Of a DNA stretch of 64,000 nt, positions 14,470 through 15,055 are shown in pieces. Numbering within the stretch: the first letter of the stretch is position 1; each line of letters begins with the position of its first letter. Made by a program: the position numbers and the translations under genes. The stretch lies in the NCBI GenBank assembly GCA_003134435.1, contig PLBE01000062.1, positions 10,354-74,353 on the forward strand. Direction: 5' to 3'. The notes under the pieces were generated by a model, which ran no database searches, was not told the DNA's origin, and saw only the letters and a program-made list of their open reading frames with translations. Source of the DNA: Acidobacteriaceae bacterium (GTDB lineage: Bacteria; Acidobacteriota; Terriglobia; Terriglobales; Acidobacteriaceae).

Positions 14470-14594
14470 AAAAAACAGAAGCGCCCCAGGCTCTTTCGAG
14501 CCTCGGGACGCTCGTTGAGCAGCTTTCCCCGAAGCCTGCTCGCACCCAGCCTAAAGCCGAGGCCATGAGATGGGAATGGCCCTAATGGACTATC
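14470..14594 (-). ncRNA. Structured RNA element, copy A (three hairpins, terminator-like end)
   Basis: On the minus strand, 5' to 3': a conserved block GCCATTCCCAT; hairpin 1 GCCT/AGGC (14549-14563); hairpin 2 GAGCAG/CTGCTC (14517-14541) with loop containing CTTCGGGG; hairpin 3 GCGTCCC-GGCTC/GAGCC-GGGGCGC (14481-14511) followed by a T-rich run (TTCTGTTTTTTG). All three stems and the blocks between recur in copy B at 14880-14996 with compensatory base changes, which argues for selection on RNA structure. It could be a free small RNA or a transcribed repeat; an acidobacterial RNA family such as Acido-1 is a possibility I cannot test. Confidence 0.65.
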
Positions 14595-14879
14595 CTCGAA
14601 ACACCTCAGCGCTAATTCGTTTGTTGGTCAAACTAAGTGATCGCCTTGATGAAATGTGTTTCATCCCGCGACAAGCTGTAGCAAGTAGCAGTTCTCTTGA
14701 TGGCTAAAATGAACAATTACATCTCTGATCAAGTTTGGCGCGACACTCTTGTCCGCGAAAGGCCCGCGCGCTGATACTGCTGCTCCATCAGGCGAGTACT
14801 TGTTCAGAGGTTCCTTGTGAAGGAGCAGAAATGGCCTGGAGTTCGAATGGATGCTAATGACTTAGTGGCGCGAGAACAG

Positions 14880-14996
14880 AAAAAACGCCCCAGACTCAAA
14901 GAGTCGTGGGACGTTAGTCGAACAGCCCTCCCCCGAAGTCTGCTCACCACCACCTTAACCGCAAGGCAGACGCATGGGAATGGCTCGAATAGGCTA
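14880..14996 (-). ncRNA. Structured RNA element, copy B (tandem homologue of copy A)
   Basis: Same order as copy A on the minus strand: block GCCATTCCCAT, hairpin 1 CCTT/AAGG (14953-14966), hairpin 2 GAGCAG/CTGTTC (14920-14945, G-U replacing G-C), and hairpin 3 with GACTC/GAGTC inner and AACGTCCC/GGGGCGTT outer stems (14884-14915), followed by TTTTTT. In hairpin 3 an inner A-T pair replaces G-C of copy A, and an outer A-T replaces G-C. It starts about 60 nt after the stop of the gene at 15056-15481, so it could also serve as that gene's terminator. Confidence 0.65.
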
Positions 14997-15055
14997 CTGT
15001 GGAAATCCCTCTTCTGGCGCGCACTTCATCAGCCTTGCCGGTCTGTCCAGGAAGT

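Follow-up and report, generated by a model that had tools for sequence, protein, structure and literature searches.

The window (the whole 64,000-nt stretch of DNA analysed here) carries on its minus strand two members, copy A (~14472-14592) and copy B (~14880-15002), of what is apparently an undescribed small RNA gene family of a known kind, of which A is the less typical copy. The gene family itself is well supported, and at the level of sequence the comparisons establish a two-hairpin structure, a GGGG(G)AGGG segment, promoter-like spacing, conservation across the bacterial family, a recurrent place beside thrB and trxA in one-copy genomes, and a multiplied gene in the window's genus. We read the copies as most probably stand-alone, Hfq-type, base-pairing sibling sRNAs that would act in trans. 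The sequence-only reading of this DNA had proposed a duplicated, structured and apparently non-coding small RNA, and this was borne out, as A and B are two of the 11 copies found with covariance model R2 in their own genome (5.75 Mb, 261 contigs) and covariation is strong.

Copies A and B have the block GCCATTCCCAT, a hairpin and a terminator in common. Compared with each other they gave a marginal match (69% identity over 114 nt, E = 0.0012), so that the pair by itself is weak, and their kinship is secure because of the wider family, namely a further B-like copy in the own genome (84% over 125 nt, E = 4e-32) and the 11 copies recovered by the covariance model. The transcript of copy A (14473..14541, minus strand) consists of a GAGCAG..CUGCUC hairpin with a shortened G-loop GGGGAAAG, a terminator hairpin and a U-rich tail, with the start at 14541 predicted from promoter spacing, and that of copy B (14877..14945, minus strand, predicted start 14945) of a GAGCAG-ACUUC-GGGGGAGGG-CUGUUC hairpin, a terminator hairpin and a U-rich tail. 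R2 matched copy A with 72.9 bits (G000:C85:24826-24894), as part of a covarying set of 76 transcripts, and copy B with 78.6 bits (G000:C85:25230-25298), as a typical member of the multicopy group, whose layout, anchored on the GAGCAG stem, is GAGCAG-ACUUC-GGGGG-AGGG-CUGUUC followed by a short linker, the terminator hairpin and a U-rich tail. The paired changes quoted in the sequence-only reading are present, in that the first RNA stem reads GAGCAG/CUGCUC in A and GAGCAG/CUGUUC in B (G-C to G-U) and the terminator stem shows a G-C to A-U change; the loop block that it described as kept is so only in part, reading CUUCGGGGAAAG in A and CUUCGGGGGAGGG in B and most homologues. In copy A the shortened loop is accompanied by an altered inner stem, and this departure from the standard loop may reflect decay, divergence or specialisation. 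The DNA likeness of B to many other copies spans ~14882 to ~15006, which means that promoter, RNA and terminator form one unit. The 177-aa and 145-aa open reading frames flanking A and B had no Pfam match, and these neighbours did not recur in the other fetched loci, except for a weak match of L227 to the 145-aa frame (32% identity). A small open reading frame after the GGAGG-like loop was also considered and rejected, as inspection by eye showed no conservation of start codons at that place.

The conserved RNA is ~70 nt long and comprises a hairpin with the near-invariant GGGG(G)AGGG loop segment and a terminator hairpin. When folds were compared with shuffled sequences (n = 200 each), the copy A transcript reached z = -4.04, with 1 of 200 shuffles as good, and the copy B transcript z = -4.75, with none. 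Covariance model R1 was built from eight own-genome copies and gave 83 matches, of which three weak ones on the opposite strand were dropped; the 80 left represent 80 distinct upstream regions and the 76 distinct transcripts from which R2 was built, and the loci used for the models are the better-scoring part of the R1 matches. Among the 76 transcripts, 94.2% of cells were paired (90.0% in shuffles), double changes occurred in 14 of 22 pairs (6.9 in shuffles) and 67 cells were doubly changed (18.0 in shuffles), and none of 500 shuffles attained any of the five measures. These shuffles disregard relatedness, which is retained in the slid-alignment controls, where pairing fell to only 39-52%. 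In alignment A7 (73 sequences, multicopy and one-copy types together) the covariation score was 0.305 against 0.207 (0/500 shuffles), and pairs with a double change numbered 14 against 10.0, a value attained by 5 of 500 shuffles, with the inner terminator pairs badly aligned between the two groups (columns 50/70: 47 of 73 unpaired). The stems vary while the GGGG(G)AGGG segment stays near-invariant, copy A being the departure. Conservation extends well past the terminator, so the likeness is not limited to simple terminators, in line with what had been read from the two copies.

The region upstream of the RNA has the spacing of a promoter. In the 80 homologues the most conserved columns were T(-12) in 66%, A(-11) in 75% and T(-7) in 72%, and T(-35) in 85%, T(-34) in 67% and C(-33) in 72%; a TAnnnT stands at -12..-7 in 52 of 80 (mean 0.8 and maximum 20 at other offsets), with the -35-like TTC at the usual 17-bp distance. 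Half-sites lie at -51..-46 and -41..-36 in the column profile, and in the resulting dyad, TrGCnC-N4-GnGCCA, 48% of positions were complementary, whereas 500 column shuffles gave 37% (at most 42%). Not every homologue has the palindrome, with at least 3 of 6 positions matched in 45 of the 80 sequences and fewer in 35. In copy A, the -10-like TAGGCT lies at 14548..14553 and the -35-like TTCCC (14572-14576) is overlapped by the palindrome TAGTCC-ATTA-GGGCCA (14577-14592), the region 14572..14592 being the block that had been noticed as shared and its dyad centred at -43.5; in copy B the corresponding elements are TAAGGT (14952..14957), TTCCC (14976-14980) and TAGCCT-ATTC-GAGCCA (14981-14996), all on the minus strand (14976..14996 for the last two together). 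A sigma-54 promoter, suggested by a resemblance to TGGCAC, was rejected by eye, because the distance from GG to GC falls one base short of the consensus and because the site is a palindrome. A search of the own genome with the exact operator pattern gave three matches, all at sRNA copies, and no further regulon member.

A different upstream region was found in the one-copy group, as judged from 54 regions (53 one-copy-type loci plus L285, a weak match outside the family): 50 of these contain RTTAC and 47 carry TTTAC or TTGC around -35, and a TA-rich -10 area follows. The own-genome copy at C97:4855-4918 (L058/L283) has an upstream region of this type. The one-copy loci L262-L268 and L288-L318 share a GTTACCTAAGATTTCTTTAC-like stretch ahead of the -35, which often has a further TTAC 10-12 bp upstream of it (by eye); this arrangement may resemble the direct-repeat boxes of OmpR/PhoB-type regulators.

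Homologues elsewhere, anticipated for a genuine RNA, were found in hundreds of genomes. R1 matched 33 of 61 genomes. These were every one of the 24 from the window's genus, its own among them, and 9 of the 13 others from the family; the 24 genomes from outside the family gave no match. In a class-wide sample of 299 genomes, run with the earlier model R2, matches were found in 61 of the 74 genomes listed for the window's family and in 3 of 225 others, all weak, and in a phylum-wide sample of 396 genomes, run with R3, all 40 matches fell within the family, with none outside it and four listed family genomes lacking one; these family totals (74 and 44) assume that genomes without a match were listed in kinship order, as appears to be the case. 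A sample of 300 genomes of the family, again run with R3, contained 257 positives with 1 to 12 matches each. R2 and R3 include sequences that they later re-found, and such matches are not independent evidence. The weak match in G294 outside the family (41.5 bits) has the G-loop and entered A7 as L285 without being counted as proven, while G161 and G238 (~31 bits, also outside) have no G-loop and were dropped. A pattern scan over named genomes returned at least 114 stretches, and 78 of the 80 listed matched R2 at 35 bits or more, all with acidobacterial labels, Candidatus Sulfotelmatobacter and 'Acidobacteriaceae' peat MAGs among them; the other two, L165 (Angelakisella, 24.3 bits) and L173 (Gemmatimonadetes, no match), were treated as chance pattern hits. 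In L170, from another acidobacterial MAG, a tandem pair was seen on the minus strand (864-935 and 1249-1316, ~385 bp apart), with the loop of the second member changed.

The suggestion that the RNA might belong to a known acidobacterial family was not supported. Rfam 15 gave no family at gathering score in the window, and over the locus the sole match at E ≤ 5 was ctRNA_pGA1, with 17.2 bits against a cut-off of 45; eight homologous loci gave nothing but a neighbouring tRNA, and Acido-1 (RF01686) was absent at gathering score from the window and the eight loci and at E ≤ 5 from the locus. Searches of open-licence literature for acidobacterial small and non-coding RNAs likewise turned up no description of this RNA.

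The genomic neighbourhoods differ between one-copy and multicopy genomes. We examined 53 one-copy-type loci, 52 from genomes with one R2 match and L264, which occupies the same place in a six-copy genome. In 38 of them the RNA is flanked by thrB and trxA, with all three in the same orientation; six have trxA only, six thrB only, two a divergent trxA and one neither, and the six thrB-only loci gave no TrxA match in the ~1.1-1.5 kb of DNA fetched, with E ≤ 1 allowed. In the representative locus L268, thrB matched TIGR00191 with 241 bits (cut-off 168) and trxA matched TIGR01068 with 123.5 bits (cut-off 97). In the window's genus, copies stand at scattered and varied places, and at 79 multicopy loci the nearest downstream open reading frame of at least 150 aa, from crude calls, was on the opposite strand in 44, on the same strand in 26 and missing in 9. 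The own-genome copy that follows tRNA-Arg(TCT) has SDR/QueG neighbours that are retained in 14 genomes of the genus, and a second copy has retained a GFO/IDH/MocA-type oxidoreductase beside it in six genomes, own included, so these copies were inherited in place. The six-copy genome G298 is a second example of multiplication; there, the thrB/trxA copy L264 and the five others (L319-L323) differ in sequence and in upstream region.

The position before trxA invites the reading that the RNA is a cis-acting trxA leader or attenuator, whose terminator controls read-through and whose copies elsewhere are strays or re-used, and indeed in 44 of the 53 loci (38 with thrB upstream and 6 without) tblastn places trxA ~94-286 nt downstream on the same strand. 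We nevertheless consider this distinctly unlikely, because trxA does not lie directly downstream on the same strand in the other nine (six thrB only, two divergent, one neither) nor at the multicopy loci of the genus, which have other neighbours, no anti-terminator pairing between the two hairpins was seen by eye, and the RNA has its own promoter-like signals immediately upstream. In one-copy genomes the RNA may act on trxA in cis, but this would leave the loci without trxA unexplained, and as a pointer to physiological role the trxA neighbourhood is only a hint. A riboswitch was rejected, as the multicopy loci lack a conserved downstream gene.

A stand-alone sRNA is indicated by the promoter-like signals, the RNA's own terminator, the variety of neighbours and the often convergent orientation of downstream genes. 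Each copy would be a ~125-bp gene with a promoter and an overlapping regulator site, a ~70-nt transcript beginning at the GAGCAG stem, and its own intrinsic terminator. The TrGCnC-N4-GnGCCA palindrome may be the site of a common transcription factor, through which many multiplied copies would be switched together; the RNA would bind Hfq through its U-rich tail, and the G-rich hairpin loop would pair with C-rich stretches of mRNAs, altering their translation or stability. Sibling copies could raise dosage, add regulatory inputs, or both. Hfq was matched in all 37 family genomes examined, weakly in four of them, and in the own genome at C45:36506-36688 (96.5 bits), and together with the absence of CsrA (PF02599) from the same 37 genomes this favours Hfq-assisted pairing of the G-loop with C-rich mRNA segments. 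Candidate C-rich sites before ATG numbered 31 in the own genome against 18 in the reversed control, the 31 including overlapping, sRNA-antisense and other-repeat hits. Six own-genome loci (L334, L335, L341, L351, L353 and L356) show an apparent dispersed repeat, in which a C-rich run is followed by a GGAATCATG-like sequence.

A bolder version, which we consider unlikely, is that the exposed GGGG(G)AGGG loop of this family-wide acidobacterial sRNA is a Shine-Dalgarno look-alike that acts by pairing with C-rich leaders and/or the anti-Shine-Dalgarno end of 16S rRNA, and that in one lineage the gene left the thrB-trxA site, gained a new palindromic operator and was multiplied about ten-fold to give a co-regulated dosage switch.

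The RNA could alternatively titrate a protein, for example as a CsrA/RsmA sponge with GGA in the hairpin loop. RsmX/Y/Z are sponge RNAs with GGA, many copies and a shared regulator site, and the GGA in the conserved hairpin, the many copies and the possible shared regulator site recall them, but a CsrA sponge is very unlikely given that CsrA was found in none of the 37 family genomes and in only three of the 61 genomes searched, all from other families, with the control genomes positive; the RNA might conceivably titrate another protein instead.

The sequence-only reading had described one ~120-nt RNA of three hairpins starting at the GCCATTCCCAT block. Two of its stems, the RNA hairpin and the terminator, stand; the first does not, and the covarying structure consists of two hairpins in ~70 nt. 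In the minimum-energy folds of some copies the block does pair, locally in C158 (CCAUUCCC-AUU-GGGAAUGG) and to the G-loop in B, C248 and C45, but in neither A nor B did the 38-nt stretch of the supposed first hairpin outdo its shuffles (z = -0.59 and +0.61 in the two copies), no consistent helix was found in 80 homologues, with no fixed-position 4-bp helix in -40..-1 forming in more than 16% of them, and TAnnnT falls inside the supposed hairpin. Nor did one-copy relatives show the block; at about that distance they carry a different motif. We therefore regard a three-hairpin RNA as highly improbable; the sequence of "hairpin 1" and of the GCCATTCCCAT block resembles a promoter and operator rather than RNA. 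A pseudoknot or alternative fold in which GCCAUUCCC pairs with GGGGGAGGG, as the folds of B, C248 and C45 suggested, was rejected because the block lies upstream of the predicted start and was not seen in one-copy relatives.

It is scarcely credible that the element is merely a mobile or REP-like dispersed repeat that has a terminator at its end and no RNA function: the repeated unit is sharp-edged, some genomes hold many copies (11 here, up to 12) and the own genome contains other dispersed repeats, but the stems covary while the loop is kept, many genomes have exactly one copy at a conserved place, copies within the genus are inherited in place, the upstream spacing is promoter-like, and an unsystematic look at the unit ends noticed no terminal repeats.

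The spacer between A and B is a dispersed repeat distinct from the RNA element. It contains at 14723-14809 a MITE-like repeat with 12-nt terminal inverted repeats (11 of 12 complementary) and, in many copies, the hairpin GCGGACAAGAGTGTCCGC; a search of the own genome with the locus region gave 36 matches, namely the region itself, six over B and 29 over the spacer.

Acidobacteriota are a major soil phylum with few listed sRNA families; a 2010 survey lists Acido-1 and Acido-Lenti-1 for Acidobacteria (PMC2864571). The present RNA was found in 257 of the 300 genomes sampled from one family, and because these include single-contig assemblies, cultivable relatives should be open to experiment. The one-copy relatives, set against a genome with 11 copies, also provide a natural series on the multiplication of an sRNA gene and on promoter change.

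Among known systems, CsrB/RsmY-type sponges are multicopy RNAs with GGA in their loops and shared promoter control; unlike them, the RNA described here has a single GGA site, and its family yielded no CsrA in 37 genomes. LhrC occurs in tandem plus dispersed copies and has C-rich loops, and differs in phylum, in sequence and in that the loop here is G-rich. The likeness is that LhrC of Listeria is also a multicopy sRNA, there under one regulatory system, LisRK (PMC4132741). Acido-1 (RF01686) and Acido-Lenti-1 (RF01687) are candidate non-coding RNAs of Acidobacteria, judged probably not cis-regulatory in the 2010 survey (PMC2864571). Neither model matches the window, the locus or the eight homologous loci. 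The alphaR8 family comes from another phylum, with sequence relation compared through Rfam scans only. It comprises the sibling sRNAs SisA-D of Alphaproteobacteria, which have a 10-mer anti-Shine-Dalgarno motif, whereas the motif here is G-rich and Shine-Dalgarno-like, and the present RNA, with its G-rich loop and a genome that is acidobacterial by its relatives, falls outside alphaR8 as the motif is described in PMC12559287. Unlike SisA-D, which are reported to show no common promoter motif, many copies here have a palindrome in common (PMC12559287). Both are nonetheless small RNAs linked to Hfq, here by prediction, with a conserved motif, there used for pairing, and both occur as one copy beside a constant gene in most species, with extra paralogues elsewhere in some (PMC12559287).
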